A DNA stretch of 64,000 nt, taken from the NCBI RefSeq assembly GCF_001005305.1, contig NZ_LBMH01000004.1:248001-312000 (forward strand). Reading direction: 5' to 3'. Each line of letters opens with the position of its first letter. Position 1 is the stretch's first letter. The position numbers and the translations under genes were made by a program. Below are positions 8,076 through 62,651 of this stretch, piece by piece. This stretch comes from Kordia zhangzhouensis (GTDB lineage: Bacteria; Bacteroidota; Bacteroidia; Flavobacteriales; Flavobacteriaceae). The notes under the pieces are model-generated. The model saw only the letters and a program-made list of their open reading frames with translations. It was not told where the DNA came from and made no database searches.

Positions 8076-8194
8076 AATCAGTCCTTAAAATTAGCGTATT
8101 TTAATGTCTTTTAATAGATTTCTTTAAAAATTAGAGGCTAAATAGTATGTTTTCTATCCTGTATTTAGTGAAGCAAATTCTATGTTTTTCAAAC

Positions 8195-39735: not shown

Positions 39736-40302
39736 ATGTCTTTTTCTCAAAGTACAGGGATTAAAGAAAACACAAAAACAGTCAAAAGAAAGTTGACTAC
39801 ATCTCCAAGAAATCAAAATTGGTATGTTTTTTATACAGCTCCTAGAGCTGAAAAAAAAGCAAAGCTAGAACTTGAATTGCGAGGATATGAGGTGTTTCTC
39901 CCTATGACAAAATCAACACGCATTTGGAAGAACCGTCAAAAGAAGCTGATTGATACTGTAATCTTTCCAAGCTATATATTTGTTCGTACCAATGAACGAT
40001 ATCTGGCTGAAATTTGCAGAATCAATAAAATTGCTACGTACATACATTGCGGAGGCAAACCGAGTAAAGTTGCACCAGAATGTATTGAAGCAATAAAATG
40101 CATGCTCAGCTTGAATCAAGAAATTTCAGTAGGCAATGAATTCATAGAAGGGGAATCTGTTCGTATCGTTGAAGGGCCATTAGCAGGGTATAATGGCGTG
40201 TTGGTTCAACAAAAATCAAAAACAAAGTTCGGTATCCATCTCAAAGAAATCAATCAGGTGGCTTCCATCGAAATATGCACAAGTGTATTAGAAAAATTCT
40301 AA
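39736..40302 (+). CDS. NusG/UpxY-type transcription antiterminator
   Basis: A 188-residue specialised NusG paralogue. The NGN domain (about 29-125) starts NWYVFYTAPRAEKKAKLELE, with LPMTKSTRIWKNRQK and VIFPSYIFVRTN as in UpxY of Bacteroides and RfaH/LoaP elsewhere. A KOW-like domain follows, with GESVRIVEGPLAGYNGVLVQ. These factors ride on RNA polymerase and suppress termination in long operons, usually recruited in the 5' leader of their own operon. It is the first gene of a one-direction run that includes two PKS genes, as LoaP and UpxY genes head their targets. UpxY is best known for capsule loci; control of a PKS operon is inferred here. Confidence 0.9.
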   Translation: MSFSQSTGIKENTKTVKRKLTTSPRNQNWYVFYTAPRAEKKAKLELELRGYEVFLPMTKSTRIWKNRQKKLIDTVIFPSYIFVRTNERYLAEICRINKIATYIHCGGKPSKVAPECIEAIKCMLSLNQEISVGNEFIEGESVRIVEGPLAGYNGVLVQQKSKTKFGIHLKEINQVASIEICTSVLEKF

Positions 40303-40461
40303 AAGAAACTACTGTAACCATCCAATCCAACCTATTTTATCAAAAAAATAATAACAATCGAGCTGTTCTCGATGGTAATGTTTTCTTGTGGAAATTGATT
40401 GCTTATGGTTGCTAATGCAAAGTTTTGAATACAAAAATCATTTATTCACAATTTGAAAAAA

Positions 40462-43400
40462 ATGAATCCAAAAGAAAAATTACTTGAAACTACAGAAACA
40501 TATTTGTGTTCGCTAATTTCTGAAGTGGCAGAATTGCCAATCACGACGAATGATGCATCAACTCCTTTTTTAGAATTAGGAATTGATTCATTTCGTGTAT
40601 TACAAATCATAAAGAAATTAGAAGAAGACTTTGGTACATTGCCAAAAACATTGTTGTTCGAAAACTTTAATATTAGTGACTTAAGCAACCACTTTGTTGA
40701 AACCTATGAATCCATATTAACAAAGAAATTTTCTCATACAGGAGCTATTGCGAAACCAACGACTAAACAATCTAAAGTTGAAAAGGAGACTAAAGAAACA
40801 ACTGCCGAAAAAGAAGTTAGTAAGCAACAAAAAACAGTAACTGTTCAAGAAAATGTAGTTCAAACTGCAAAAAAACAAACAACATCTACAAAATTAGAAA
40901 TAAGACGACCAATTATCATCTCTGAAAAAGAGATTGGAAAACATAAAGAATTGAATAATTGGTACGTTGAAATTTTTAATCAATATAAAAATGAAAGTTC
41001 TACTTCGAGAGGGACTCGTAATATTGCTCCTTTGCTATTTATAGGAAGTGAGCGAAAAGGATATCTCAATTACAGCAAAAGTGGAAACCTCATTTTAGTG
41101 TATGCTTATACAGGTCCAAGAACCTATTTATCTACTATTGCAGAAGAAATCACAAAGTATAGCGAAGACAATGGATATGAAATTACGATTTTGTCTGACC
41201 ATGCCATAGAATCTATCAATGAAACACCATTTTACGCAACTCCGTTTGGTGTAATTTCAAGAATTGAAAACATGCAGAAATTTTCGCTTAACGGAAGTAA
41301 AATGCGTCGTCTTCGATACCAAGTTTCAAAATTTGAAAAAGCGGGAGATTGTAAAACAGTAGAGTATGTAAACGGAACTGACAAAAAAACGGACAAAGAA
41401 ATTGTACGTTTAATTGATGAATGGTCAGCCGCAAGAACAATGGTTAATCCGTTGATTCCTATTGTGAAAGAAGAAATCTTAAACGGAAAGCTTAACAAAG
41501 AACATAGGCTATTCTTAACTTATCTAGACAATACACTTCAAAATGCAATTCTGATTTCAAAATTATCAAACGAACTGAACGGATATTTAATGGATTTGGA
41601 ATTTTATCCAAAAGAGATGCCGCTTGGAGGATTGGAATATGGAATTGTGAAAATGATGGAAGCATTAGCAGCAGAAGGTGCTAACATGCTAAGTCTGGGA
41701 GGAACATATGGTTGTAAAATTGAAGAATCCAATAATGCTGATCCCGAACTAGAAAAAACGCTTAATTTTCTTCGTGAAAGCAAAATATTTAATGATGAAG
41801 GAAATCTACAATTCAAAAATAAATTCCGCCCAAAACATCAAACAATCTTTATTTGCAGACCTGTAGCTGTAAGTAATGCAGACAATGTTACAGATATTAT
41901 TATGATGATTGCCGATCCTTCTAAAGCAGAAACGGAAACGCAAGGTAAAAGTTCATATGAAGAGCTTACAGTTCAAATGACAGTCTCAGACAATTCATAT
42001 ACTACTGTAGAAAATACAAAAGAAGTACCCGTGCAAAAAACAGAAACTTCTGTAGTTGTTGAAGATGAACTTGTAATAATTGAAGGAATCAAATATTCAC
42101 AGGTATTAGCCGTAAATGGTTATAACCCATTAAATATTTCAAATACAGAAGTCGCTCATGATCTTAAAACTGACTCTTGGGCACAACTTGACTCTCCTGT
42201 AATCGATGCGCAACTCAATTTCTTGTATTCTCAACTATACAAATCAACTCACATAGAAAAGAGTTTACAAACAGTATTTCCGTTCTCAAATGTAGCTTTG
42301 ACATCTTCTGGACGAAATGCTGAAAAGGTGTTTTTCCAAGCATGGGAGAAAAAAGGAATAGTTCTACAAAATTTATTATTCCCTACTGCAATTTATAGCG
42401 AAATTCAATATGGTTTTTCTCCTAAAGAAATACCTAACCCTGAAGTATTCAATTTGAATTCTGAAAAACTGTTCAAAGGCGATCTTCATTGGGAACAATT
42501 AGTTGCTCTTGTAGAAAAAGAACAAGAATCACTTGCCTTTGTAGCAATAGAAATTTCTAATAATGCTGGAGGTGGAACACCAATATCAATTGAGCAACTT
42601 AAAAAAATAAAAGAACTACTCAAAGCGCACAATATTCCTTTCGTTATGGATGGCACGCGAGTGTTGGAAAATGCCAAGTGTATAATAGAAAATGAAAAGG
42701 AATATGCTAACCAAAATATCTGGGAAGTAGCCAAAAAAATCTATTCATTTGCTGATGTAGTTTGGGCGAGTCTGCCAAAAGACTTTTGTGTAAACAAAGG
42801 TGGAATCGTAGCTACGAATGACGAAACTCTTTTCAATAAAATTCAAGATGCTATTGAAGATGAAGGTGTTGGGCTAGATATCATTGACAAAAAACTAATT
42901 GCAGCTTCTTTTGAAAATAAACCTGTAATTGAAAAGCGTATTCACAATCGAATAGCCTGTGTAAAAATAATTCATGAAGCACTTTCTTCTCATGGTATTC
43001 CCGTAATAAAACCAGCAGGAAGTCATTGTATACTTATTGATGTAAAGCAAGTTCCTCAATTCAAAAACTTTAAAAATCCTGTAGAATCATTTGCTGCTTG
43101 GTTGTACCTCAATAGTGGAATCAGAGGAAGCGTTCATAATACAGGAATGCAAAGTAATACCGCAATTAATGGAGTATTGCGTTTGGCAATTCATGTAGGG
43201 ATGGAGCCAAAAGAGGCTAACGAAATCAGTCAAAAACTAACTCAGTTATTTGATTGTATGGAAAACATTCCTGAAGTAGAGGCAAAAGGAGCGCCAGAAA
43301 CTTTTGGAACGATTGGAGCAAAATATCACTTGCGAAAATTTCATAATGCAACCAACTCAATTGTCTCAATTACTGACGTAAATGTGGCAAGTTCAGGAAA

Positions 43401-46400
43401 TAAGTTATCTTCAAATGTTTCTACCGAAACAACTATACAAGCAACAAATTCTTCGGAAGCGCAGCCTAATAAAAATACAAACTATAAACATCAAGACATT
43501 GCTATTGTAGGAATGTCAGGAAGATATCCAAAAGCTAAAAACTTAGACGAACTTTGGGAAAATTTATTGGCAGGAAGAGATTGTGTTGAGGTAATTCCTG
43601 AAGAACGACTTAAGCAAAGAAAAAACACACGATTTACAAAAAAATATAGAGGAGGATTTTTAGAAGATGTTGATAAATTCGACTCCATGTTTTTCAATAT
43701 TCCACCAGCTGTTGCAGAAATGTTCGATCCGCAAGAGCGATTGCTTCTAGAAACTGCGTGGGAATCTATTGAAGATGCGGGCTATTATCCAGAAATCCTC
43801 ACGCCAGAAAATACACCAAAAAACATTGGAGTTTTTGTTGGTGCTGTATGGACAATGTATCAAATGATTGGTGCGGAAGAAAAATTAGTTGGACATGATA
43901 CCAATCCAAACTCGTTTTTATGGAGTGTTGCAAACAGAATTTCATACTGTTTAAATCTTTCAGGACCAAGTATGTCAGTCGATACAGCGTGTTCTTCAAG
44001 TATGACAGCTTTATATTTAGCGTGTGAATCAATTTATAATGGAGAATGTGCTGGAGCAATCGTAGGTGGTGTCAACTTGGATTTACATCAAAGTAAATTT
44101 GATATCAACTCTTTTGGAGGCGCATTATCTCCAGACGGTGTTTGTAGAACCTTTGGTAAAGGAGCAAATGGTTATGTGGCTGGAGAAGGAGTAGGAACTA
44201 TTTTCATCAAACCATTAGCACAAGCCGAAAAAGATGGAGATCATATTTATGGTGTCATCAAAAGTGTATCTGTAAATCATGGTGGACGAACTAGTGGTTA
44301 TATGGTGCCTGATCCAAAAGCTCAGGCAAGTCTAGTTGTAACTGCCTTAGAAAAAGCCAATATAGACGCACGTAGTGTAGGATATATAGAAGCGCATGGA
44401 ACAGGAACGGAATTAGGTGATCCTATTGAAATTTCAGGTCTTAAAAGAGCATTTGATAAATATGAAGTCGCAAATCAAACATGTGCAGTTGGTTCAGTAA
44501 AAACCAATATAGGCCACCTAGAAGCCGCAGCAGGTGTTGTGGGAATTCATAAAGTTTTGCTGCAAATGAAGCACAAAAAATTAGTGCCTTCTTTGCATTC
44601 TACTGAACTTAATGAATTTATTGATTTTAAAAATTCTCCATTTTATGTAGAGCAAGAAGTTGAAGATTGGAAGCCTAAAATAGTTGATGGAGAGGAATTT
44701 CCGCTACGTGCAGGAATAAGTTCTTTTGGTGCTGGAGGCGCAAATGCACACGTAATTATAGAATCTTATGAGCATGCCCAATTACCTGAAGAGGAAGGGG
44801 CATACCAAATTTTTCCGTTATCTGCTGTAAAAAAAGATAGACTCAAAGCTACTGCCGAACGTCTACTGAAGTTCTTACAAAATGAAGCAAATCAACATAT
44901 ACGCATACAAGATATAGGGCATACTCTTCGTGTCGGTAGAAAATCTTTTGAACACAGGCTTATTATCATTGCCGCTACAAAAGAGGAGTTAATAGAAAAA
45001 CTTACTCTATTTATTGAAGATCAAAAAGATCATAACATACTAAAAGGCGTAGTTGAAAAAGTTGGAAACATTGCCAAATTACTCAACAAAAGCGAGAAAA
45101 AAGCATTTATTGAGCTAATTGCTGAAAGTGGAGACCTTCATAAAGTTGGACAATTATGGATTGAAGGAATTATTAATGATTGGCAAGCTATTGCCAATAC
45201 AAATGATGGAAAACGAATTTCATTGCCAACGTATCCTTTTGCAGACAAACGTCATTGGGTTGAAAGAACCGACAATGAAGCAATAATAGGTACAGCATCA
45301 GCAATGCACCCAATGATTGATGCAAACGAATCAACCTTTGAACGTCAATTATTTAAGAAAACTTTTCACGATCAAGAATTTTTCATTTACGATCACTTAG
45401 TATCTGATATTCCTACATTACCAGGAGTTGCCTATTTGGATTTTGCCCGAAAAGCAGGTGAATTAGCAGCTGGAAAAAAAGTAAAAGCAATCAAAAACAT
45501 TATTTGGCTGAATCCAATTACAGTAAATAATTCTCAACCAACAGATGTGTGGATAGAACTCATTCCACAAGCTGGACAGGTTGTCAAATTTGAAGTATTC
45601 AGCAAAAATGAAGCAGGCGACAAGCAATTACATTCACAAGGAAAATTAACCTATGTAACTGATGAAGAAGAAGCAATTACAGAATTCATTGATGTAAAAG
45701 GAATCCAAGAACGTTGTACAAAAGTAGCTGATGGAAAAGACGCCTATCCTGAATTTAAAAAACTAGGTTTAGGTTTAGGTCCAAGTTTTCAAGTGCTTCA
45801 AGAAGTCTTTAAAAACGACGATGAAATGCTAGGGATTATGAAAGTCCCTGATGTATGTGAAAATGAATTTAAAGACTATTTACTGCATCCTTCATTACTA
45901 GATGGAACAGGACAAACCGTTATGGCAGCGCACTTGTTGTCGCAAAGTGAAGAATCTTCAGAAGGGTTATTTGTACCTTACTCATTTGGTGAAGTAGAAA
46001 TTTTACATCCGCTTACGGAGAACTGCTATAGTTATATTCAAAAAGTAAATGAACCGAACTCAAATCTGTCAAAGGCAAATTTGATTATTACGGATGAGAA
46101 TGGAAAAATATTAGTAAAAATCAATGAATCTGTTGGGATTCCGCTAACGGACATTCACGAAAAACCTGCAGAAGTTCCAAAAACTGCAAATACAACGGAG
46201 GTAGATGAATTTTTAGATTTATATTATACTCACATTTGGGAAGCTGTTTCTCTAACAAAAAATATAGAAGAGCTTAACGTCAGTAAAAGTATTCTATTGT
46301 TTGATACAGATGATGCTACATTTAAAAGCTATCAAAAACAAACAAAAACACCAGTCATTCTCATACAACCAGGGAAAAAGTATCAAAAAAATTCTGATAA

Positions 46401-49400
46401 TCAATTCACAATCAATCCTGAAAATAAAGAAGAATTTGGACAACTATTTGCCGAATTACAAAAGCAAGGAATTGTATTAGATAAAATCTATTTTGGCTGG
46501 TCAAAAGAAACATTTACTGAAAATGAAGAATCATTAACCAATGCCTTAACAAAGGGTGTATATGCATTCTTATATGTTTGTCAAGGATTAATGCAGTTGA
46601 AGTCTGATGATAAAATTTCAATAGCATATATATATCATGGTTCAGAAAATACGGCACAACCACAAAACGAAGCAATTAATGGTTTTATAAAAAGCTTACA
46701 CTTAGAACAATCTAATATTCGTTGTAAAACCATAGAAATTAGTCAACAAGTAAATCCTGATCAACTATCTGAAATAGTAGTAGCTGAATTACAATTAGAT
46801 ACTATTGAACAATTAGCGGTTCGTTATGAAAAAGATCAACGATTTGTTAGAAAACTACAAAATCTGGAACGTTGGAATAGCAATCGCTCATCGGCAACGA
46901 ATCAAGGATTAAAAGAAAAAGGAGTATATCTTATCACAGGTGGTGCTGGCGGATTAGGATTCATTTTTGCAGAATACTTAGCAAAAGAATGCAAAGCAAG
47001 ATTAGTGCTAACAGGACGTTCTGTACTTTCAGAAGAAAAATCGACTAAAATTCAAGAGCTAGAAAAACTAGGGGCAGAAGTATTGTACATTGCTTCAGAT
47101 ATATCCAAATGGGATGATGTCAATAAAGTCATAGTTGAAACAAAAAAGAAGTTTGGGACTATTGATGGAATTATTCATAGCGCAGGTGTTCTTCGCGATT
47201 CTAACATTCGCAATAAAACAATTGAAGAAATGCAAGCGGTATTTGCCCCAAAAATTTACGGAGCATTCTATCTAGATATTTTGACAAAAAATGATGCATT
47301 AGACTTTTTCGTAACATTCTCTTCCATGGCAGCTGTTGGAGGAAACATGGGACAAAGTGATTATTCCTATGCCAACCACTTCATGGATACATATATTCAA
47401 AGAAGAGAAGCACTACAACAACAAGGAGAACGTTCAGGAAAATCACTTAGTTTGAACTGGTCTATTTGGGCAAATGGAGGAATGAAGTTAGATGCGCAAA
47501 TGGAAGCGTTCTTTAAAAATAGTTTAGGAATCAGACCGTTAAAAACGGAAACGGGTATAGGTACTTTTACAAGCGGTTTATTTGCTGAAGAAACACAAAT
47601 TGTGGTTGTTGAAGGAATGCAAGAGCGCATGGAAATTGCTTGGGGAATTCGAGAAAAAGAAGAAGATCACTCAACAACTGTAAACACGGGTAGTGAGACT
47701 AGCCCATCCATTTCAGATGAGGCGAATGGAGAAGTAGCGACTTTAGTTCAAAAAGAGCTTATTCAAATTGCAATGGACTTCTTAAAACTAGAAGAAGATG
47801 ATGTTGCAGTTGATAAAATTCTATTAGACATAGGTTTTGATTCTATTGGACTGGCTTCCTATGCAAACGCATTGAATGAAAAATACGGTTTGGATGTCAT
47901 TACACCAGTATTATTCTTTGAATATCCGTCAATTAATGAGATTACAAAATATCTAATTAATGAACATAATGCAGCTGTTGTTAACACATACAATTTAGCA
48001 GCTAATAATAGCTCAACAGTACAAGAAACTTCAAAACAAAGCAACACAGCGGTAAAAGAAGCTAAAGCAGAAACTCCTTCATTTACAGGAATCAATAAAG
48101 GTTGGAATCCAAGCACTTCTCAAACAATTGCAGCCAATAAAACCTCGCAAGGATCAGGAATATCTGCAGACTCTCGTTTTGTAGATTGTCCTATTGCAAT
48201 TGTTGGAATTGGTGGAGTAATGCCTAAATCCAAAAACATGCAAGAATATTGGGAAAACCTGAAAAATGAAGAGAACATGATTTCAGTAGTACCAAGAGAT
48301 CGCTGGATTTGGGAAGACTATGATGGAGATCCGATTACAGAAAAAAACAAAACAAATTCAAAATACGGCGGATTCATTGATGATGCTGACAAATTTGATC
48401 CATTATTCTTCGGAATTTCACCAAGAGAAGCAGAAATGATGGATCCACAACAGCGCGTGTTTTTAGAAACTGTTTGGAATACTATTGAAGATTCTGGTTA
48501 TAAAGTTTCCGATCTTTCAGGTACTAAAACTGGTTTATTTGTTGGTGTTGCAGTACACGATTACAGTGACTTGATGAATGGACTCAATGTAGAACTTGAT
48601 GGCTATACTGCTTCTGGAAATTCACACTGCATCCTAGCAAATCGTATTTCATTCTTACTAAATTTACGTGGTCCTAGTGCTCCAATTGATACGGCATGTT
48701 CTAGTTCGCTAATCGCTATTCATCGAGCCATAGAATCTATTCATACAGGAAGTAGTGATATGGCTATTGTGGGAGGAGTTCAGTTAATGATGACACCAGC
48801 AGCACACATTTCTTTCGGAATGGCTGGAATGTTGAGTAGTGATGGAAAATGTAAGACATTTGATAAAAGCGCTAATGGATATGTTAGAGGAGAAGGCTCT
48901 GGAGCTATTTTCTTAAAAACCTTAGCTCAAGCGGAAGCAGACAATGATCAAATATATGCTGTCATCAAAGCAACTTCCGAAAATCATGGAGGGAAAGCAA
49001 CAATGCTAACAGCTCCTAATCCACATGCGCAAGCAGAATTATTAGTTGAAGCATATGAAAAAGGGCAAATTGATCCTGCAACGGTAGGATATATAGAATG
49101 CCATGGAACAGGAACAAGTTTGGGAGATCCAATTGAAATTAGAGCGTTGGCAAAATCATTCAAAGAATTATATGACAAGCATAACAAACCAATTCCACAA
49201 ACACCTCACATTGGTTTAAGTTCAGTAAAAACCAATATAGGTCACTTGGAAACGGCTGCGGGAATTTCTAGTTTTTTAAAAGCAGTATTAGCAATGAAAT
49301 ACAAGCAAATTCCGGCTTCTCTACACTTTGAAGAACTCAATCCTCATATCAGTTTTGCAGGAACTCCATTTTATGTGGTCGATAAAACCCAGCCTTGGGA

Positions 49401-51012
49401 ACGAATGATTGGTGCAGATGGAAAAGAAGCTCCAAGACGTGCAGGAATCAGCTCTTTTGGATTTGGAGGAGCAAATGCACACGTTGTTATTGAAGAATAC
49501 ATTCCTTCCAAGGAAGAAAAACCAATAGAATTTAATAAACCATTCTTATTTGTCTTATCTGCAAAAAATGAAGATAGATTAAAAGCTTATGCAGAGTCAA
49601 TATTACAATTTGTTGAAAATCAAGAAATAGACTTGCTTAATCTTACATACACGTTACAAGTTGGAAGAGACGAAATGAAAGAACGCTTGGGAATTGCTGT
49701 CAACTCCAAAGAAGAACTTACTCAGTTATTGAAAGATTATATCAACGGAGAAGAGTTAGAAAACTTACACGTTGGAAAAGTAAATAAAAAGAACAAAGAA
49801 GTCGTGCTTCCTAGCAATGCAGAAATCAATTCTTATATAGAAGCTTATAACCATGAAGAGGTATTAAAAGCTTGGGTGCAAGGAGCTGAAATTGATTGGA
49901 ATACACTTTATGGACACGATAAACCTAAGCGCGCAAACATTCCAACATATCCTTTTGCCAGAGAAAGCTATTGGTTTGATTATGATGAAAACAATGCAAA
50001 GGGACATACAATTGCAAAAGCGATGCATCCATTATTGCATACCAATACCTCTGTATTAAGACAACAGGCATACAGTTCTACGTTTCATAAAAATGAATTT
50101 TTCTTATTAGAAGAAGAAACAGGTGAAAAAACATTATCGGCAGGTGCATTTTTAGAAATGGCAAACACAGCAATTACTCATGCATCTACTGCTACATTAG
50201 ACTTTAAAGCGATAGAATTTAGAAACATACAGTGGTATCATTCCTTTATTGCCAATACTGAAACGGCGATAACATTGGCTGTACGAGAAGAAAATTCTCA
50301 TACGGTAACGTTTGAAGCCTACAGCAATCAAAATAATGAAGAAAGTGTTCACTTTGAAGGTACTGCAAGGTTAGAAATAATGACCAAGTCAAAGCAAATT
50401 GATATTGAACTGTTGCAAAAACAGCTTAGTGAAGTAGCTATTAAAGAGATAAATTTCTTCGAAGCATTTGCTCAAAAAGGATTCAACGGGTATGCATATC
50501 CTGATATTCAGAAAATGTACACTGGGCATAAACAATTGGTACTTAAAGTAAGTTTATCTGAAGATTTGAAAAAAGATGCGTCTCGCTATGTAATTCATCC
50601 AGCGATGATAGAAGTTGCGTTACATGCTTCTGGGTATATGATTCAACCAGATTATTATACAGAAAGCGCTCCACAACCAATGAAACTTGATCAATTAACA
50701 GTTTTATCTCCTTGTGAAGAAGAAATGTTTATCTGGATTCGTCAAGCAAGAAATAGTAAATTCAACGAAGATGAAATAGGATTGGATATCTATTTACTGA
50801 ATGCGCAAGGCGAAATATGTGTATCACTCAAATCATTAATTTTTGCCAATGAAGAATACACGCTTTATAATACTCCAGAATCACTTGAATTTGAAAAATA
50901 TTTAGAATCTTTCTATAACATTACTTCCAATGGTTCTGCAAAGAAATCTACAGAAGACATGACAGAAGAATTCAAAAAACTATTAGGAAAGGATTTCGAT
51001 AAACTTTCGTAA
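40462..51012 (+). CDS. modular trans-AT-type PKS: ACP-DUF2156-PLP lyase-KS-DH-KR-ACP-KS-DH*
   Basis: About 3516 residues from the ATG at 40462 (a TTG three codons upstream is possible). Domains by motif: ACP (S43 in GIDSFRV); DUF2156-like GNAT-fold domain, about 150-470 (KMRRLRYQVSKFEKAG, FKNKFRPKHQ); tryptophanase/tyrosine-phenol-lyase-like domain, about 550-945 (GRNAEK, SNNAGGGTPIS, D730 and R733 in VMDGTR, probable Schiff-base K773 in LPKDF); KS1, about 1010-1437 (C1177, H1312, H1352); DH1, 1615-1913 (H1645, D1814); KR, about 1925-2330 (TGGAGGLG); ACP2 (S2461); KS2, 2576-3013 (C2746, H2881, H2928); a C-terminal DH-like fold lacking the catalytic His and Asp. No AT domain is present, so extender loading must come from outside. 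The gene ends in a half-module completed by the next PKS. Confidence 0.87.
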   Translation: MNPKEKLLETTETYLCSLISEVAELPITTNDASTPFLELGIDSFRVLQIIKKLEEDFGTLPKTLLFENFNISDLSNHFVETYESILTKKFSHTGAIAKPTTKQSKVEKETKETTAEKEVSKQQKTVTVQENVVQTAKKQTTSTKLEIRRPIIISEKEIGKHKELNNWYVEIFNQYKNESSTSRGTRNIAPLLFIGSERKGYLNYSKSGNLILVYAYTGPRTYLSTIAEEITKYSEDNGYEITILSDHAIESINETPFYATPFGVISRIENMQKFSLNGSKMRRLRYQVSKFEKAGDCKTVEYVNGTDKKTDKEIVRLIDEWSAARTMVNPLIPIVKEEILNGKLNKEHRLFLTYLDNTLQNAILISKLSNELNGYLMDLEFYPKEMPLGGLEYGIVKMMEALAAEGANMLSLGGTYGCKIEESNNADPELEKTLNFLRESKIFNDEGNLQFKNKFRPKHQTIFICRPVAVSNADNVTDIIMMIADPSKAETETQGKSSYEELTVQMTVSDNSYTTVENTKEVPVQKTETSVVVEDELVIIEGIKYSQVLAVNGYNPLNISNTEVAHDLKTDSWAQLDSPVIDAQLNFLYSQLYKSTHIEKSLQTVFPFSNVALTSSGRNAEKVFFQAWEKKGIVLQNLLFPTAIYSEIQYGFSPKEIPNPEVFNLNSEKLFKGDLHWEQLVALVEKEQESLAFVAIEISNNAGGGTPISIEQLKKIKELLKAHNIPFVMDGTRVLENAKCIIENEKEYANQNIWEVAKKIYSFADVVWASLPKDFCVNKGGIVATNDETLFNKIQDAIEDEGVGLDIIDKKLIAASFENKPVIEKRIHNRIACVKIIHEALSSHGIPVIKPAGSHCILIDVKQVPQFKNFKNPVESFAAWLYLNSGIRGSVHNTGMQSNTAINGVLRLAIHVGMEPKEANEISQKLTQLFDCMENIPEVEAKGAPETFGTIGAKYHLRKFHNATNSIVSITDVNVASSGNKLSSNVSTETTIQATNSSEAQPNKNTNYKHQDIAIVGMSGRYPKAKNLDELWENLLAGRDCVEVIPEERLKQRKNTRFTKKYRGGFLEDVDKFDSMFFNIPPAVAEMFDPQERLLLETAWESIEDAGYYPEILTPENTPKNIGVFVGAVWTMYQMIGAEEKLVGHDTNPNSFLWSVANRISYCLNLSGPSMSVDTACSSSMTALYLACESIYNGECAGAIVGGVNLDLHQSKFDINSFGGALSPDGVCRTFGKGANGYVAGEGVGTIFIKPLAQAEKDGDHIYGVIKSVSVNHGGRTSGYMVPDPKAQASLVVTALEKANIDARSVGYIEAHGTGTELGDPIEISGLKRAFDKYEVANQTCAVGSVKTNIGHLEAAAGVVGIHKVLLQMKHKKLVPSLHSTELNEFIDFKNSPFYVEQEVEDWKPKIVDGEEFPLRAGISSFGAGGANAHVIIESYEHAQLPEEEGAYQIFPLSAVKKDRLKATAERLLKFLQNEANQHIRIQDIGHTLRVGRKSFEHRLIIIAATKEELIEKLTLFIEDQKDHNILKGVVEKVGNIAKLLNKSEKKAFIELIAESGDLHKVGQLWIEGIINDWQAIANTNDGKRISLPTYPFADKRHWVERTDNEAIIGTASAMHPMIDANESTFERQLFKKTFHDQEFFIYDHLVSDIPTLPGVAYLDFARKAGELAAGKKVKAIKNIIWLNPITVNNSQPTDVWIELIPQAGQVVKFEVFSKNEAGDKQLHSQGKLTYVTDEEEAITEFIDVKGIQERCTKVADGKDAYPEFKKLGLGLGPSFQVLQEVFKNDDEMLGIMKVPDVCENEFKDYLLHPSLLDGTGQTVMAAHLLSQSEESSEGLFVPYSFGEVEILHPLTENCYSYIQKVNEPNSNLSKANLIITDENGKILVKINESVGIPLTDIHEKPAEVPKTANTTEVDEFLDLYYTHIWEAVSLTKNIEELNVSKSILLFDTDDATFKSYQKQTKTPVILIQPGKKYQKNSDNQFTINPENKEEFGQLFAELQKQGIVLDKIYFGWSKETFTENEESLTNALTKGVYAFLYVCQGLMQLKSDDKISIAYIYHGSENTAQPQNEAINGFIKSLHLEQSNIRCKTIEISQQVNPDQLSEIVVAELQLDTIEQLAVRYEKDQRFVRKLQNLERWNSNRSSATNQGLKEKGVYLITGGAGGLGFIFAEYLAKECKARLVLTGRSVLSEEKSTKIQELEKLGAEVLYIASDISKWDDVNKVIVETKKKFGTIDGIIHSAGVLRDSNIRNKTIEEMQAVFAPKIYGAFYLDILTKNDALDFFVTFSSMAAVGGNMGQSDYSYANHFMDTYIQRREALQQQGERSGKSLSLNWSIWANGGMKLDAQMEAFFKNSLGIRPLKTETGIGTFTSGLFAEETQIVVVEGMQERMEIAWGIREKEEDHSTTVNTGSETSPSISDEANGEVATLVQKELIQIAMDFLKLEEDDVAVDKILLDIGFDSIGLASYANALNEKYGLDVITPVLFFEYPSINEITKYLINEHNAAVVNTYNLAANNSSTVQETSKQSNTAVKEAKAETPSFTGINKGWNPSTSQTIAANKTSQGSGISADSRFVDCPIAIVGIGGVMPKSKNMQEYWENLKNEENMISVVPRDRWIWEDYDGDPITEKNKTNSKYGGFIDDADKFDPLFFGISPREAEMMDPQQRVFLETVWNTIEDSGYKVSDLSGTKTGLFVGVAVHDYSDLMNGLNVELDGYTASGNSHCILANRISFLLNLRGPSAPIDTACSSSLIAIHRAIESIHTGSSDMAIVGGVQLMMTPAAHISFGMAGMLSSDGKCKTFDKSANGYVRGEGSGAIFLKTLAQAEADNDQIYAVIKATSENHGGKATMLTAPNPHAQAELLVEAYEKGQIDPATVGYIECHGTGTSLGDPIEIRALAKSFKELYDKHNKPIPQTPHIGLSSVKTNIGHLETAAGISSFLKAVLAMKYKQIPASLHFEELNPHISFAGTPFYVVDKTQPWERMIGADGKEAPRRAGISSFGFGGANAHVVIEEYIPSKEEKPIEFNKPFLFVLSAKNEDRLKAYAESILQFVENQEIDLLNLTYTLQVGRDEMKERLGIAVNSKEELTQLLKDYINGEELENLHVGKVNKKNKEVVLPSNAEINSYIEAYNHEEVLKAWVQGAEIDWNTLYGHDKPKRANIPTYPFARESYWFDYDENNAKGHTIAKAMHPLLHTNTSVLRQQAYSSTFHKNEFFLLEEETGEKTLSAGAFLEMANTAITHASTATLDFKAIEFRNIQWYHSFIANTETAITLAVREENSHTVTFEAYSNQNNEESVHFEGTARLEIMTKSKQIDIELLQKQLSEVAIKEINFFEAFAQKGFNGYAYPDIQKMYTGHKQLVLKVSLSEDLKKDASRYVIHPAMIEVALHASGYMIQPDYYTESAPQPMKLDQLTVLSPCEEEMFIWIRQARNSKFNEDEIGLDIYLLNAQGEICVSLKSLIFANEEYTLYNTPESLEFEKYLESFYNITSNGSAKKSTEDMTEEFKKLLGKDFDKLS

Positions 51013-52563: not shown

Positions 52564-54318
52564 ATGAATATGCAAACACTTGACACTGAAATAGCAGAGA
52601 AAATTATCTCGAAAAAGATTGAGAAGAAAGAAGCCATGCGCATCTTTGATGGTTTGTCAGAAACGGAAAAGCAACAACTTATTTCGCAGATAAAATCATT
52701 GACAGGCATTACAGATGTAACTAATGGAAATTTTTCTTCATCAAAAAGATTAAAACCTTTAGATCAAAGAGATCTAGAAGATCATCATAGAGAATTTATT
52801 CAAAAACTGACTGAGAAATACGAAAAATTTGTTCCAAAATCAAAAGCGAACGTACCGAAACATCACTTTCATTTTGTAGATCAGCGTCGTAATTTCCATT
52901 TAATCAAAGAAATCAAACAACTGCATTTCCAAGTTACTTACGAAAAAGCAGAAGGAGCTTATGTATATGATATTGATGGAAATAAATACATAGACATTTC
53001 GGGTGATATGGGAGTAAATATCTTCGGTCATAAAGCACCAATGATTGTTGATGCCGTGAAAGCAGCACTTGATCGTGGAATTCCACTAGCAGGATACTCT
53101 GAAACAATCCATAACGCAACTCAAATTATTAGTGAATTAACTGGGCATGATCGTGTGCTGTACACACAATCAGGGACAGAAGCGGTAATGGTTGCTACAC
53201 GAATTGCGAGAGCAGCAACGAACCGAAAAAAGATTGCGTTATTTGAAGGAGCTTACCACGGACTTTCCGATGTTGTAATGGCAATGCGCGATATGCAAGG
53301 CAATAGTTTGGCAGCTGGACCAGGAATGTTACAAGAATTTGCAGATCAAATTATTGTATTGAAATATGGAGACGAAGAATCATTAGATATCATTGAAGCA
53401 AGAGCAGATGAAATAGCTGGTGTTTTAGTTGAGCCAGTACAATCGAGACACATATATAACAAACCGGTTGAATTTTTAAAAGAACTACGCAATATTACTA
53501 TTGAAAAAGACATTCCTCTGATTTTTGACGAAATGATTACAGGATTCCGAGTAAGTCCAAAAGGAGCTCAAGGAATCTTCAATATAACACCAGACATTTC
53601 TACATATGGAAAAATTCCAGGAGGTGGATTGCCTACAGGATTAGTGGCTGGTTCTCAAAAATATATGGATTTAATTGATGGTGGAACTTGGGAATTCAAT
53701 GATGATTCGATGCCAAAATCGAAAAGAGTTGGAATGGGAGGAACACATTCACAAAATCCATTAAAAGTAGCCTCTTCTTACGCAACAATGAAAGAAATTA
53801 AAAAGCGTTTGGAAAAAAGAGATAACTGTAACTACTATTCACATACATGCGAGTGTTTGTACTGCAAGCTCAATACACGCACCATGCGAATGGTGGAGGA
53901 ACTAAATCAATATTTTGTAGAGCATAATTTGCCTATAACTATTGATTTTTTTGGTTCATTATTCCGTTTCAGATACATAGATAGTTACTGGGGAATTACT
54001 GAGGCATTAATGTTCATTTTAATGCGAATGAATGGAGTTGAAACAAATATTCAAGGAAACTGTTTCTTAACCACAGCACACACAGACGAAGATATTCGAA
54101 ATGTTATCAATGCGGTAAAAAAGAGTTTACAAACACTTATGGATGAAGGATTCTTTTATGAAGCACCAGTGGAAGCTAAAAAAGAAGAAGCGGTCTTTGT
54201 AGAAACACCTAAGCCAGTAGAAAACAAAAGCATTTCAAAAATAGATCAGACTACCGATTCACAAATGCAAAAACTAAAAGATCTTTTAGTTAGAGATTTA
54301 AAAAGATTCAATCAATAA
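52564..54318 (+). CDS. class III aminotransferase of the PKS/NRPS-associated (GSA-like) type
   Basis: A 584-residue PLP enzyme related to glutamate-1-semialdehyde aminomutase and to the embedded AMT domains of mycosubtilin- and microcystin-type synthases. It has FDEMITGFRVSPKG and the Schiff-base lysine K350 in TYGKIPGGGLPTG; YDIDGNKYIDISGDMG and YTQSGTEAVMVATR are early fold marks. Such domains convert a carrier-bound beta-keto thioester to a beta-amine. N-terminal (about 1-60) and C-terminal (about 540-584) helical extensions may dock to the PKS. An insert with C422, C429, C431 and C434 (spacing CX6CXCX2C) looks metal-binding and is unusual. Here it stands alone between two PKS halves, rather than fused. 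Confidence 0.85.
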   Translation: MNMQTLDTEIAEKIISKKIEKKEAMRIFDGLSETEKQQLISQIKSLTGITDVTNGNFSSSKRLKPLDQRDLEDHHREFIQKLTEKYEKFVPKSKANVPKHHFHFVDQRRNFHLIKEIKQLHFQVTYEKAEGAYVYDIDGNKYIDISGDMGVNIFGHKAPMIVDAVKAALDRGIPLAGYSETIHNATQIISELTGHDRVLYTQSGTEAVMVATRIARAATNRKKIALFEGAYHGLSDVVMAMRDMQGNSLAAGPGMLQEFADQIIVLKYGDEESLDIIEARADEIAGVLVEPVQSRHIYNKPVEFLKELRNITIEKDIPLIFDEMITGFRVSPKGAQGIFNITPDISTYGKIPGGGLPTGLVAGSQKYMDLIDGGTWEFNDDSMPKSKRVGMGGTHSQNPLKVASSYATMKEIKKRLEKRDNCNYYSHTCECLYCKLNTRTMRMVEELNQYFVEHNLPITIDFFGSLFRFRYIDSYWGITEALMFILMRMNGVETNIQGNCFLTTAHTDEDIRNVINAVKKSLQTLMDEGFFYEAPVEAKKEEAVFVETPKPVENKSISKIDQTTDSQMQKLKDLLVRDLKRFNQ

Positions 54319-54336
54319 ACAAAATACACCAACAAA

Positions 54337-57300
54337 GTGGCAGAATCAAACGTACTTACACAGGTAAAAAATATAGTTTCTAAAACGCTTAAGATTTCTC
54401 TAGAAAAACTAGATGTTGATGCAGACTTTGATAGTTTCGGGATAGATTCCATTATTGCAATGGAATTGATGTCAAACCTTTCAAAAGGCATGAATATATC
54501 TATTACGCCTGCACAATTTACAGAGGTAAATACCATCAAAGAACTTGCAGAAGCTATTGAAGAGTTGACTAATGAAAGCACTACGGTTTCAGAGATAGAA
54601 ACTCCTGAAATTAGTAAAGAAGTAGCAACTCCTCGAGTTGAAAAACAATCAACACCTCAAGAGCCTGTAAGAAAAATTCGTAGACAACAACGACCAGTAG
54701 TTGCTCGAAAAAATGAGTCTTCTAACCGTATAGACATTCCACATAAAAATGTATTGGATAAAATTCAACAAGAATTTGCAATTGATCTTAGTTACCGCAA
54801 ATTCAATACCATTGAAGATATCGCAGATACATTGATTAATAGTCATTTAGATGAACTATTAGCACATTACAATTTAGTAGATGAAATAATTGATGATTCT
54901 TCGTACGAAGAAGAAGTATATGTTGAAGAAACAAACTATTCGCAGGGCAAAATAGCTTTCGATGACATTGCCATTGTAGGAGTAAGTTGTAACTTTCCAG
55001 AAGCGCCTAATGCACAACAATACTGGGAAAATTTGATTGAACAAAAAAATAGTATCAAAGAAATTCCTGAAGATCGTTGGGATTGGAAAACACATTACTC
55101 AGCCACAAAACAAGAAGGAAAAACAAATTCCAAATGGGCAGCGTTAATTGATCACCACGATTGTTTTGATGCTAAATTCTTCAACATTGATGATGAAGAA
55201 GCCAAATTGATGGATCCGCAAGAACGTTTATTACTTCAAGAAGTGTATAAATCATTTCAAGATGCAGGAATCAATCCGAAAGAGCTTAAAGGAAGTAAAA
55301 CAGGCATCTATACTAGTTATGAATATTCAGAGTACGAACATTACTTGCGAAATAATGTTGACAAGTTAAAAGTTGCCAACAAACCTTTCTTTTCGTCGTC
55401 TAGCCCAACGTATTATTTGTCTAATAGACTTTCTTTTCTATTCGATTTTCATGGGCCGAGTGAAACTTTCAATGTAAACTGTGCTGGTTCGGCTGTAGCT
55501 ATAAACAGAGCGTATCAATCTTTACAAAATGGAGAAAGTGATGTAGCAATTGTAGGTGGCGTTTCACTAAATCTTTTTGCGGATGATTATATAGCACTAT
55601 CAAAATATGACATGCTCTCCCCAGATGGTACTTGTGCTGTCTTTGATGATAAAGCAAATGGATTTACACGTGGAGAAGGAGCAGCGTCAGTAGTATTAAA
55701 ACGACTTTCAGATGCAGAAAGAGACCAAAATAAGATTTATGGGGTTATCAAAAGTTGTCACCAAAACAATCGTGGAAACGCTCGATTTTTACAAGAAATT
55801 GATACCGAATCTATTACAAATGTAATTAGCAATTGTTTTGAAAATGCAGCCATTGACCCAACAGGTGTTCACTACATTGAAGTTGATGGATATGCAACAA
55901 AATGGGCAGATTCATTTGAGTATGAGGGAATTAAAAAGGTATTTGAAAATGCTCAAATCAATAAAAAGAGTTGTGCTTTAGGAAGTTTAAAAGGAAATAT
56001 AGGAAACTTGGAATCGGTAAATGGATTAGCAAGTTTAATTAAGCTTGCACTTTCATTACATCATAAAAAATTCCCAGCAACAATTACAAAAAATACGGTA
56101 AATTCTTTTATAGATATCAATAATCCTAAGCATCCGCTTTATATAGCAGATAAAGAAATTCCATTTGAGTCCATTCGTAATGAAGACGATGCAATTATCA
56201 GAGCAGGAATCAATTCATTTGCTGATACAGGAGTGAATGTGCACATCTTATTAGAAGAATACACAAAATCTTATAGAAACTTAGCTTCGCATTCAACCGA
56301 ACCACAATTATTTGTAATATCTGCGAAAGATCAAGATAAACTAATAGAAAGCGTTCAACATTACATTTCGTATTTATCAAATACGGAAGATATCATGTTT
56401 ACCAATATGATATACACATTACAAACGGGACGTGAAGCTATGGAAGAACGTTTGGCAATCGTAGCGAATTCGCCTCAAGATTTGTTAAGTAAGTTAAATA
56501 CGGTTAAAAGTGGTTTTCCAAAAGACAAAACTCAATTAGAAAAAAAGAGTATCTATTATGGAGCTGTAAAGCAAGCAGAAAACAATCCATTAATGGGAAT
56601 CTTTACAGATGATATGACCAAAATGCTTATTCGTGATGGTGCTCAAAAAGATCACTTGCAAAAATTAGCAAACTTGTGGATTGCAGGTTTTGATGTGCCT
56701 TGGAAATCACTTTGGGAAGAAAAAAATATGCAGCCTATATCTTTGCCGTCTTATCCGTTTTACCAAACTAGATATTGGGCTGAAGTAACAGGAGAAGTAA
56801 CACCTGTGGCTTTATCAATAACAAAAAAGGTTGAAAAAACTACAGACGCAAAACCAACTTTACAAGATGCTACCGAAAAAATAGCTCAAGAGAAGTTCTT
56901 TTACATTTCTGAAGAAGAACATAAAGAATATTCTTTGACAGCTATTGAAAAAATGGAACTCTATCTACAGCAGGAAATAGCATTGTTATTAAATATTTCT
57001 ATCACAGAGGTAGACAAATCAAAAAACTTCTTAGAGTTAGGATTAAACTCTATAGATATAGGAACGTTTGTTTCCAATACAATGAACCTTTTAGGGGTAA
57101 CAATGTCTCCAGCTATTATTTTTAATAACCCTGAAGTGAATAGCTTGGCTAGATATTTATGTGATATATTTCCTCAAAAAGTACAAAAAGTTCAAGTGAC
57201 TAGTGATGAAAAATTAGCAATCACAAATGCTTCAGAAACTACCGTAGAGCAAGTTGAAGCAAAAGCCCTAATTCCTTTACAAACTAAAGGAAAAAAACGC

Positions 57301-58092
57301 CCAATTTTTGCAGTTTCACCAGGCGGAAACGGAACAACACTATCATTTCAACATTTGGTTCAAGCCTTAGGAACGAGTCAGCCGTTTTACGGATTAGAGC
57401 TAGTAATGAGTACGGAAGCATTACCAGAAGAGATTTCTATTGAAAAAATTGCTCAAGCAAATGTCGCAGAAATTCAAGAAGTACAGCCAAAAGGACCGTA
57501 TCGTATTATGGGACTTTCTAATGGAGGAATGATTGCTTTTGAAATAGTTAAGATACTCACTCAAAAAGGAGAAAAAGTAGAATTGCTAGGTTTCTTAGAT
57601 TGCTTTTCACCTTCACAAAAGTTAATTGATATGGTTGATGAAATTGTTGGTGTTTTCAATGGAAAATTTGCGGCTAATTCTGATGAAAAATTAGCAATAG
57701 ATGTTGAAAAACTAAAAGCGATGTCTGAAGAAGATCGTTTTGATTATCTCTATGAAGTAATTACAAAACAAGGATTTACCATTCCAAAAGCTCAATTTGA
57801 AACAACATACAAAATAGCTCGTGCTATGGATATGAGTTGTAGAGCATATCATCCAGAGAAGCTAACAAATACAGTTAATACAGTACTCTTTAGAGCGACT
57901 GATGGTTATATGGAAGGGTATGAAAATCTTTCTGAAGACTATGGTTGGAATGCACTTCTAGCAAAACCAGTAACTATTGAATCTATAAAGGCAGATCATT
58001 TTTCTATTACTGATGAATCATCAAGTGCAATCATCGCAAAAAAAATCAATGAAGTGCTAAAAAAAGCGACACCCAAAAAAGTGAATTCATAA
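54337..58092 (+). CDS. PKS: ACP-KS0-ACP-thioesterase
   Basis: A 1251-residue protein starting at GTG (54337), 18 bp after the aminotransferase stop. Order: ACP (S38 in FGIDSIIAM), a charged linker with helical segment, a KS-like domain (about 209-641), ACP (S905 in LGLNSIDI, with Asn for the usual Asp), and a type I thioesterase (about 950-1251; S1061 in GLSNGG, D in LDCFSPSQ, H1221 in ADHFSITD). The KS keeps C382 (NCAGS) but both catalytic histidines are replaced, D517 in EVDGYATK and N557 in GNIGNLES, so it should not condense: a KS0, typical for trans-AT lines, which passes chains on. The TE then releases the product by hydrolysis or ring closure. No AT, KR or DH. Confidence 0.88.
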   Translation: MAESNVLTQVKNIVSKTLKISLEKLDVDADFDSFGIDSIIAMELMSNLSKGMNISITPAQFTEVNTIKELAEAIEELTNESTTVSEIETPEISKEVATPRVEKQSTPQEPVRKIRRQQRPVVARKNESSNRIDIPHKNVLDKIQQEFAIDLSYRKFNTIEDIADTLINSHLDELLAHYNLVDEIIDDSSYEEEVYVEETNYSQGKIAFDDIAIVGVSCNFPEAPNAQQYWENLIEQKNSIKEIPEDRWDWKTHYSATKQEGKTNSKWAALIDHHDCFDAKFFNIDDEEAKLMDPQERLLLQEVYKSFQDAGINPKELKGSKTGIYTSYEYSEYEHYLRNNVDKLKVANKPFFSSSSPTYYLSNRLSFLFDFHGPSETFNVNCAGSAVAINRAYQSLQNGESDVAIVGGVSLNLFADDYIALSKYDMLSPDGTCAVFDDKANGFTRGEGAASVVLKRLSDAERDQNKIYGVIKSCHQNNRGNARFLQEIDTESITNVISNCFENAAIDPTGVHYIEVDGYATKWADSFEYEGIKKVFENAQINKKSCALGSLKGNIGNLESVNGLASLIKLALSLHHKKFPATITKNTVNSFIDINNPKHPLYIADKEIPFESIRNEDDAIIRAGINSFADTGVNVHILLEEYTKSYRNLASHSTEPQLFVISAKDQDKLIESVQHYISYLSNTEDIMFTNMIYTLQTGREAMEERLAIVANSPQDLLSKLNTVKSGFPKDKTQLEKKSIYYGAVKQAENNPLMGIFTDDMTKMLIRDGAQKDHLQKLANLWIAGFDVPWKSLWEEKNMQPISLPSYPFYQTRYWAEVTGEVTPVALSITKKVEKTTDAKPTLQDATEKIAQEKFFYISEEEHKEYSLTAIEKMELYLQQEIALLLNISITEVDKSKNFLELGLNSIDIGTFVSNTMNLLGVTMSPAIIFNNPEVNSLARYLCDIFPQKVQKVQVTSDEKLAITNASETTVEQVEAKALIPLQTKGKKRPIFAVSPGGNGTTLSFQHLVQALGTSQPFYGLELVMSTEALPEEISIEKIAQANVAEIQEVQPKGPYRIMGLSNGGMIAFEIVKILTQKGEKVELLGFLDCFSPSQKLIDMVDEIVGVFNGKFAANSDEKLAIDVEKLKAMSEEDRFDYLYEVITKQGFTIPKAQFETTYKIARAMDMSCRAYHPEKLTNTVNTVLFRATDGYMEGYENLSEDYGWNALLAKPVTIESIKADHFSITDESSSAIIAKKINEVLKKATPKKVNS

Positions 58093-58139: not shown

Positions 58140-59066
58140 ATGAAAGCAGTAGTTATTACGGAGTACGGTCCGCCAGAAGTTCTACAGATTAAAAACATTG
58201 AAAAACCAACACCAAAAGCAGATGAAGTATTAATTAAAGTACATGCAACGACTGCTCATGCGGGTGATTCTCGTATTCGTAGATCGAGTCCTTTTATTGT
58301 AGTTCGCTTATTATTTGGCTTTTTGAAACCTAAAAAAAATCTTATACCAGGAATAGAACTTTCGGGAATTATTGAAGAAGTAGGATCAAAAGTGACACAT
58401 TTCAAAAAAGGAGATGAAGTTTTTGGACTTACGGGATTGCGATTAGGAGCATATGCTGAATATTGCTGTATACGTGAAAAAGTAAAAGATGGTACGCAAG
58501 AACGTAAAGGAATCATCAAAAAAATACCCAATAACTTAACGCTAGATGAATCATCGGTTGTAGCTTCTGGAGCACTGACTGCTTTGAAAAATCTACAAAA
58601 AGGAAAAGTACAAAAAGGAACTAGCATTCTCATCAATGGAGGTTCTGGAAGTTTAGGAACGTATGCAATTCAACTAGCAAAATACTATGGGGCAGAAGTA
58701 ACGGCTGTGTGTAGTGGTAAAAATGAAGCATTGGTTCGATCTATCGGAGCAGATCATGTTATTGATTATACGCAAGAGGACTTTACCCAAACAGGGAAAA
58801 AATATGATGTAGTATATGATGCCGTAATGAAATCTACACGCTTTAAGTGCAAAAAAATATTAAAACCGAAAGGAATCTATCTTAATAACTATTGGCTTTC
58901 TAGTATTAAACAATCTGATATGGAAACCATTCATGCATTAATAGAAAAAAACGAACTCAAACCAATTATAGACAGAACCTATACTATTGACAATGTAGTA
59001 GAAGCTCATAAATACCTTGATACAGAGCGAAAAAAAGGAAATGTCATCATACAAATACACAAGTAA
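58140..59066 (+). CDS. zinc-free MDR oxidoreductase (quinone/enoyl reductase type)
   Basis: A 308-residue medium-chain dehydrogenase. GroES-like N-terminal part (MKAVVITEYGPPEVLQIK), then PGIELSGIIEEVGSKVTHF and the NADPH-binding INGGSGSLGTYAIQLAKYYG. The zinc-ligand cysteines of alcohol dehydrogenases are absent, as in quinone oxidoreductases and PKS enoyl reductases. It lies within the operon 47 bp after the second PKS and could serve as trans-acting ER on the alkene left by KS1-DH1-KR, or reduce a precursor. Neither is shown. Confidence 0.83.
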   Translation: MKAVVITEYGPPEVLQIKNIEKPTPKADEVLIKVHATTAHAGDSRIRRSSPFIVVRLLFGFLKPKKNLIPGIELSGIIEEVGSKVTHFKKGDEVFGLTGLRLGAYAEYCCIREKVKDGTQERKGIIKKIPNNLTLDESSVVASGALTALKNLQKGKVQKGTSILINGGSGSLGTYAIQLAKYYGAEVTAVCSGKNEALVRSIGADHVIDYTQEDFTQTGKKYDVVYDAVMKSTRFKCKKILKPKGIYLNNYWLSSIKQSDMETIHALIEKNELKPIIDRTYTIDNVVEAHKYLDTERKKGNVIIQIHK

Positions 59067-61756: not shown

Positions 61757-62651
61757 AAAAAGTATTCAACTTATTTTACTAGTATCGTCTCTTTTCTTTA
61801 TAGGAAATGCCAATGCGCAAAGTCCTAAAGAGATTATGGTAAAAGTAGATAGTGTTGAAAATTTCACGTACAATTCGTCTATTCGTAAATTTCAATTTAC
61901 ATCGTGTAGATATGATATTTCTGGTGGAAAATTACGTTGTAAAACGAAACCGCGTCAAGTGGTAGTAGAAAATATTCACAAAGACTATTTGGTAGGACCA
62001 AAAAAGAAAGATGCCAAATCGTTAGATATGATTATTTCTCCAATTGCCGATAAAGGAACTAATATGTTGGTATGGAAAAAAGCAGATCAAGACGATAATG
62101 ATTTCTGGTTATACTTGCCAGCATTAGGAAAAGTAAAGCGAATAGCTTCTAGTAATGAAGGAGGAGAAACAGGAAGCGTTTTTGGAACCGAATTCTCTAT
62201 TGAAGATGTATCTCCTAGAAAAATAAAAGACTATACATACAAGTTACTTGGGGAAGATACATTCAACAATCGACCAGTTTGGATAATTGAATCAACACCT
62301 ACAGAAGCACGCTCTAAGAAAACGTTCTATAGCAAAGTAATAAGTTATGTAGATAAAGAACGTTATGTGATTTTAAAGGATGAATTATACAATCGAACAG
62401 GGAAACTATTCAAGCAATTAATTACTAAAAAAGTAGATCGAATTGATGGAGTTTGGATAGTTACTAAATCTTCTATGATTAATTTACTATCGCGAAGAAT
62501 CACAAATTATGATGTATTGTCAATCGATTTTAACTTAGAAATTGATGATGAATTCTTTACGCAAAGAGCTATGACTGATTTTGCTTATAGAGAAAAGAAA
62601 ATGAATGAATATCGTACATCACTTAAAGATATCGATTCGGGCAATAAATAA
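61743..62651 (+). CDS. LolA-like periplasmic lipid carrier (outer membrane lipoprotein-sorting type)
   Basis: A 302-residue protein with signal peptide (ending NANAQ, about 26) and a LolA/LppX-like beta fold indicated by FWLYLPALGKVKRIASS, GTEFSIEDVSP and PVWIIESTP. Pfam groups such sequences as outer-membrane lipoprotein-sorting proteins of PF17131 type, near DUF1329. They commonly travel with RND/MMPL transporters. It is translationally coupled to the transporter (start before its stop). It probably ferries a lipid-like cargo through the periplasm to the DUF1302 barrel. Confidence 0.83.
   Translation: MKPFKKSIQLILLVSSLFFIGNANAQSPKEIMVKVDSVENFTYNSSIRKFQFTSCRYDISGGKLRCKTKPRQVVVENIHKDYLVGPKKKDAKSLDMIISPIADKGTNMLVWKKADQDDNDFWLYLPALGKVKRIASSNEGGETGSVFGTEFSIEDVSPRKIKDYTYKLLGEDTFNNRPVWIIESTPTEARSKKTFYSKVISYVDKERYVILKDELYNRTGKLFKQLITKKVDRIDGVWIVTKSSMINLLSRRITNYDVLSIDFNLEIDDEFFTQRAMTDFAYREKKMNEYRTSLKDIDSGNK

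Follow-up and report, generated by a model that had tools for sequence, protein, structure and literature searches.

A DUF2156-lyase didomain of Kordia zhangzhouensis as the probable rear half of a late, split polyketide synthase module that adds sulfur

A 64,000-nucleotide stretch of DNA from the marine bacterium Kordia zhangzhouensis (assembly GCF_001005305.1, contig NZ_LBMH01000004.1, positions 248,001 to 312,000, forward strand; the window) encodes a large polyketide synthase (PKS), here PKS-A, in which a DUF2156 domain (DUF) and a pyridoxal phosphate (PLP)-dependent lyase domain (SH) lie between an acyl carrier protein (ACP) domain and the first ketosynthase (KS). This raises the question of whether the pair loads and reworks an amino-acid starter, as a preliminary description of the locus proposed, or acts further along the assembly line. 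It is suggested that this leinamycin-type DUF-SH didomain probably forms the second part of a late trans-acyltransferase (trans-AT) PKS module that is divided between two proteins and adds sulfur, and the arrangement of the proteins makes a late, split extension module, rather than a loading region, its most likely position.

Domain organisation of PKS-A

Residues of PKS-A are numbered from the TTG at 40453, whereas the preliminary description used an ATG at 40462; its D730, R733, K773 and S43 are 733, 736, 776 and 46 here.

40453..51012, + strand: PKS-A, AT-less type I PKS, 3519 aa, TTG start
40501..40701, + strand: ACP1, Ser46 in LGIDSF, carrier of the DUF-SH module (domain scan)
40906..41868, + strand: DUF domain (DUF2156/LPG_synthase_C, dual GNAT fold)
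42097..43326, + strand: SH domain (fold-type I PLP lyase, K776/D733/R736)
43498..44679, + strand: KS after SH, Cys-His-His intact (domain scan)
45301..47958, + strand: dehydratase-ketoreductase-ACP (DH-KR-ACP) of the next module (domain scan)
48193..50826, + strand: KS-DH ending PKS-A, without ACP (domain scan)

Our own hidden Markov models gave the order ACP(17-83)-DUF2156(152-472)-SH(549-958)-KS-DH-KR-ACP-KS-DH. The presence of DUF and SH in PKS-A is confirmed and not a chance match: Pfam LPG_synthase_C (DUF2156) matched residues 198-468 with 51.0 bits (cut-off 27.5; E 1.5e-13) and Beta_elim_lyase residues 597-881 with 98.9 bits (cut-off 27.0; E 4.3e-28), which bears out both domain calls of the preliminary description. 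The profile search that it recommended assigned neither domain to AT families, and no AT model matched PKS-A at E up to 0.1 in the Pfam scan.

The SH domain is a fold-type I PLP lyase domain and is homologous to a proven thiocysteine lyase domain. It scored 193.9 bits (E 4.2e-57) with the NCBIfam tryptophanase model and 141.8 bits (E 2.8e-41) with that of tyrosine phenol-lyase (TPL), under the curated cut-offs of 285 and 720.7 respectively, and is therefore a relative rather than a member of these families; an ordinary stand-alone tryptophanase was ruled out by these scores and by the gene context. In alignment, K776, D733 and R736 fall on K257, D214 and R217 of TPL, so that the PLP Lys, Asp and Arg picked out beforehand are retained, and all three are invariant in the 36 aligned didomains (alignment A1: the window plus 35 of the 39 loci described below). 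With four actinobacterial loci added, N704 and R910 share this invariance (36 + 4 sequences). R910 corresponds to R404 of TPL, which we take to have a role in carboxylate binding. The position of TPL Tyr71 is Thr in SH. Given that the carboxylate-holding residues are kept, as a (thio)cysteine adduct requires, the aminoacyl thioester on Ser46 that had been put forward as the substrate of SH is unlikely; the C-S cleavage offered beside it is the likely chemistry of SH. The residues of TPL that hold the free alpha-carboxylate are described in PMC3870968.

Relationship to known DUF-SH systems

The DUF-SH pair of LnmJ was correctly named as a precedent. The statement that no Bacteroidota system with this order had been described does not hold, since Table 2 of PMC3870968 (Milano et al. 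2013) already contains Kordia algicida A9ECY5 as CP-DUF2156-PLP3-KS-KR-CP-KS, the order also given there for Lysobacter F8TUA6. The window's didomain and the one of K. algicida, a different genome within Kordia, share 80 % identity. In the count of Meng et al. 2021 there are 109 clusters with DUF-SH, including three families besides the leinamycin one. Systems of this kind are already known, and the didomain of the window is a further member of a widespread family. Relatives are encoded by 39 loci (50 stretches matched the pattern) from Bacteroidota, Pseudomonadota, Acidobacteriota and Fibrobacterota, two of them cut by contig ends (L037, L038) and two carrying the pair in two reading frames (L028, L040); alignment A1 leaves out L028, L037 and L038 as broken or truncated and L040 for its stops, and alignment A2 holds 23 sequences. 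Four of 11 Kordia genomes have the didomain. When 395 Bacteroidota genomes were drawn evenly, 151 matched, including the window's own, and among the matches listed none but the window's own covered both domains, the rest being SH only, in frames of mostly 455-540 aa; the didomain is therefore patchy within this phylum.

The didomain shares its domain order, fold and PLP and carboxylate residues with LnmJ, GnmT and WsmR of the lines for leinamycin, an antitumour compound, guangnanmycin and weishanmycin, where it likewise adjoins an ACP in an AT-less PKS, and 62 DUF and 34 SH positions are invariant in both groups when the four actinobacterial loci stand for the leinamycin group. DUF2156 lies directly before SH. 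All 38 loci whose sequence reaches that far have an ACP immediately ahead of DUF, as part of the same protein in 31 and as a protein of its own (106-141 aa) in seven. The SH domains of GnmT, LnmJ and WsmR are thiocysteine lyases in vitro and their substrate is an ACP-tethered L-thiocysteine adduct (PMC8479088), and by analogy such an adduct is assumed for the SH of the window. Nevertheless, the leinamycin-family terminal module, KS-ACP-ACP-DUF-SH-TE, has two ACPs and a thioesterase (TE) after SH, and the four actinobacterial loci read KS-ACP-ACP-DUF-SH, whereas PKS-A has a single ACP before DUF and a KS after SH, and the TE is on PKS-B. Unlike the leinamycin type, the window didomain also starts a protein apart from the one with its own KS, and its relatives belong to other phyla. 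One ACP is also reported for DUF-SH modules of annotated non-leinamycin PKSs (PMC7618002).

Position of the module in the assembly line

The gene row continues beyond the window on the same contig with PKS-C (8038 aa; 65180-89296 in window coordinates), followed by PKS-D, E, F and G, a hydroxymethylglutaryl-CoA synthase (HMGS), two enoyl-CoA hydratases (ECHs), two ATs, a metallo-beta-lactamase-fold protein, an 81-aa ACP, a KS and a phosphopantetheinyl transferase. PKS-C opens with an AprA-MT2-like domain and an ACP, and therefore the line has another start. Five proteins (C, D, F, G and A) are carrier-less after their last KS and the fronts of five (D, E, G, A and B) are able to complete such a dangling KS; PKS-F also opens with an ACP and PKS-E ends in one, fitting a tandem pair. 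The simplest pairing would give the protein order C-D-E-F-G-A-B, in which ACP1 would complete the terminal KS of PKS-G, and PKS-B, which ends in TE, would complete the terminal KS-DH of PKS-A.

54337..58092, + strand: PKS-B, ACP-KS(no catalytic His)-ACP-TE, line end (domain scan)

Full clusters were domain-annotated in five genomes, together with parts of that of Aquimarina Aq78. In the Aliikangiella cluster (PKS-A in L005) KS and carrier ends balance likewise, with one more ACP-first protein. Those of Fulvivirga (5 and 5), Caballeronia (4 and 4; PKS-A read in two frames) and Pseudoduganella (4 and 4) have no ACP-first PKS besides A and B, and ACP1 is thus needed to complete a KS in these three unless a discrete ACP serves. 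The dangling ends balance in all five clusters, strictly in three; without ACP1 one KS among the PKS proteins would be carrier-less in these three and the simplest pairing would be broken in the other two. Within the acidobacterial locus L039 the row reads KR-ACP-KS-DH (protein end), HMGS, ACP-DUF2156-SH-KS. Frames like PKS-G (1358-1411 aa, 61-88 % identity) occur in five of the 17 genomes searched, which lie behind 17 of the 39 loci, and in the three annotated clusters without PKS-G the F-like protein ends in KS-DH. The post-SH KSs (19, a chosen set from 15 named loci plus the clusters) fall together in a single clade (support 100) that does not include the first KSs of the assembly lines, in a tree of 91 of the 92 KSs gathered, as expected if such KSs see one kind of modified chain. 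A place for the didomain in a loading region is not borne out, given the separate start in PKS-C, the fit of ACP1 as carrier to the KS that ends PKS-G, and the gene order of L039.

Proposed chemistry and alternative explanations

Starting from the domains, family, fold, catalytic residues and protein ends read in the sequence, the following route can be proposed, in which protein order, thiocysteine substrate, Michael acceptor and role of DUF are all putative. The terminal KS of PKS-G would load ACP1, and the chain there would be, or become, an alpha,beta-unsaturated thioester, to whose C-beta DUF would bring about conjugate addition of L-thiocysteine (or cysteine). In a PLP-dependent beta-elimination, SH would then break the C-S bond of the cysteinyl part, so that pyruvate and ammonia leave and -SSH (or -SH) stays behind on the chain. 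The KS of PKS-A would pass this sulfur-bearing chain on to PKS-B and TE.

As the source of the acceptor, we lean towards an enoyl group made by upstream DH domains. In the clusters without PKS-G, a KS-KR-ACP module and then KS-DH stand ahead of ACP1. In five of five clusters the motifs of the final DH in the F-like protein are intact, whereas ten of ten DHs from modules with an ECH are without the catalytic His (DH fragments <150 aa omitted). A dehydrating bimodule with a dead KS was considered and rejected, since the His of the KS is retained, and the enoyl route is accordingly putative. Several observations weigh against the enoyl route and the assigned position. The KSs feeding ACP1 keep Cys-His-His and may thus elongate to a beta-ketone, which would need HMGS chemistry and not a DH; the KS of PKS-G in the window's cluster has no DH behind it; and ACP1 joins the second tandem leinamycin-type ACP weakly (support 82, 68 columns), with 25-35 % identity to leinamycin-type second ACPs and 42 % to the cluster's own F_ACP2. 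Protein ends and gene order are no proof of protein order either, and the discrete ACPs that also occur in the clusters may serve.

The best surviving alternative, a beta-branch built by HMGS on ACP1 as the source of the acceptor, is somewhat improbable. A beta-branch cassette (HMGS, ECHs, KS, ACP) is present in the cluster, an HMGS of 76 % identity lies immediately ahead of ACP-DUF-SH in L039, a KS-ECH pair stands upstream in ten of the 39 loci (Lysobacterales, Acidobacteriota), and the split module of the window's cluster, KS then ACP-DUF-SH without KR or DH, resembles leinamycin module 8 (PMC7618002). The Trp that flags beta-branching, six residues after the phosphopantetheine Ser, is Ile in ACP1, whereas six other ACPs of the cluster (C5, C6, D2, D3, E2 and F1) have it; its absence is no bar to branching, since the module 8 ACPs of the leinamycin family also lack it (PMC7618002). 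Against the beta-branch stand that difference, the tree neighbour of ACP1, a leinamycin ACP not beta-branched in vitro (PMC7618002), and the DH directly before ACP1, intact in the three clusters without PKS-G while all ten ECH-module DHs have lost their His.

That SH is a plain cysteine lyase leaving -SH rather than -SSH is unlikely. LnmJ-SH does have an inefficient cysteine lyase activity in vitro, but the GnmT, LnmJ and WsmR domains are reported as thiocysteine rather than cysteine lyases (PMC8479088), and no sequence feature among those tested separated the two kinds.

For DUF, whose role in leinamycin-type lines is left open in the available text of PMC8479088, the fold provides a lead. 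The best 50 structure matches listed for a didomain model were all to SH, and DUF was therefore modelled separately. Its predicted structure has as best Protein Data Bank matches with assigned activity the phosphatidylglycerol (PG) aminoacyl synthases, Sbb17/Sba18 and FemX. Like lysylphosphatidylglycerol synthase, DUF matches Pfam PF09924 and has the dual-GNAT fold. Sbb17 and Sba18 are aminoacyl-tRNA-dependent peptide synthases, and the fold belongs to aminoacyl transferases. This raises the possibility, an improbable one, that DUF is a repurposed aminoacyl-tRNA-dependent transferase for which cysteinyl- or thiocysteinyl-tRNA would be the sulfur donor to the ACP-bound chain. DUF is only 14-16 % identical to the PG synthases (C-terminal domain of L-PGS, A-PGS and MprF), and the Arg of their DLMR motif, which is catalytic, is replaced by Phe in 40 of 40 didomains; an ester hydrolysis would also have to come first to give SH a free carboxylate. 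Cysteinyl-tRNA synthetase of E. coli does make CysSSH-bound tRNA (PMC5660078). If true, this reading would tie polyketide sulfuration to the translation machinery.

Loading and reworking of an amino-acid starter by ACP1-DUF-SH is very unlikely. It would suit the N-terminal place in the first PKS gene of the row and the aminoacyl-transferase fold of DUF; the separate AprA-MT2-like start, the carrier balance, the post-SH KSs apart from first KSs, the discrete ACP protein of seven of the 39 loci and the carboxylate-binding residues kept in SH all speak against it. An evolutionary relic without a catalytic role is scarcely credible: nothing was found in its favour, the catalytic residues do not vary among the 36 aligned didomains, and each of the 39 loci, which span four phyla, matches both DUF and SH.

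Neighbouring genes

39736..40302, + strand: NusG-family paralogue, possible dedicated antiterminator (PF02357, E 3e-16)
52564..54318, + strand: class-III aminotransferase between PKS-A and PKS-B (PF00202, E 2.5e-50)
58140..59066, + strand: zinc-type alcohol dehydrogenase, possible trans enoylreductase
59162..62651, + strand: MMPL transporter and LolA-like lipoprotein-sorting protein, possible export

A NusG homologue occurs in 21 of the 39 loci, and in 19 it lies no more than 1 kb upstream of the PKS. This is where a processive antiterminator would be expected, provided that the gene row, about 85 kb long, is a single operon. Two weak inverted repeats lie between NusG and PKS-A, the longer 75 % complementary (40343-40387). 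The KS of PKS-B has no catalytic His (EVDGYATK here, similar elsewhere) in five of five clusters, and by its sequence is a non-elongating KS before ACP-TE. A DUF1302 protein is encoded between PKS-A and PKS-B (51056-52486), and MMPL, LolA-like (59162-62651), GMC oxidoreductase and START proteins (L041, 8745-10852) between PKS-B and PKS-C. The last four hold their position in Aq78, where DUF1302 adjoins the cassette, and the set looks like one for export to the outer membrane. In L024, the one long plus-strand open reading frame (ORF) scanned between ECH and discrete ACP (7312-8955 within 7187-9550; other frames untried) gave no Pfam match at 1e-5. A NusG-sized ORF (187 aa) followed by several ORFs of 1105-2174 aa on G000:C33 (about 376655-405000; L053/L054) is perhaps a second assembly-line cluster. 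Window positions 18296-39043 hold sugar uptake loci with two LacI regulators, TonB receptors, invertase/MGH1-like hydrolases, a PfkB kinase, a glycerate kinase and two SSF symporters.

Relationship to cuniculene and significance

Cuniculene clusters have been reported in Aquimarina Aq78, Aq349, EL33 and A. muelleri (PMC9323603) and in Flavobacteriaceae RHTr2 (PMC9860996), and Aq78 (L011), A. muelleri (L004) and RhTr2 (L009) are among the 39 loci. Aq78 has the same row as the K. zhangzhouensis cluster (PKS-A, aminotransferase, PKS-B, MMPL, LolA, GMC, START, PKS-C), while A. muelleri and RhTr2 carry PKS-A and the aminotransferase; no PKS-G was found in the Aq78 stretches examined. Among the 15 of 21 KS matches listed for Aq78, the KSs on contigs C15 and C21 sit in AT-less proteins of the DUF-SH cluster, C32 is a 3.2-kb piece, and C4 encodes a PKS that includes an AT. 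Cuniculene is therefore probably made by the DUF-SH line. This identity, the transferase fold as a lead to the role of DUF, the split-module position and the post-SH KS clade were not found stated in the open-licence literature searched, in which most subscription papers are missing.

In summary, a step that installs sulfur would probably act late in the lines of a trans-AT PKS family found in four phyla, among them the probable cuniculene line. The prediction for the products is that sulfur, or a sign of its former presence, lies a few units away from their carboxyl end. The single-ACP split modules, some with a discrete ACP, would let DUF, SH and ACP be assayed apart.
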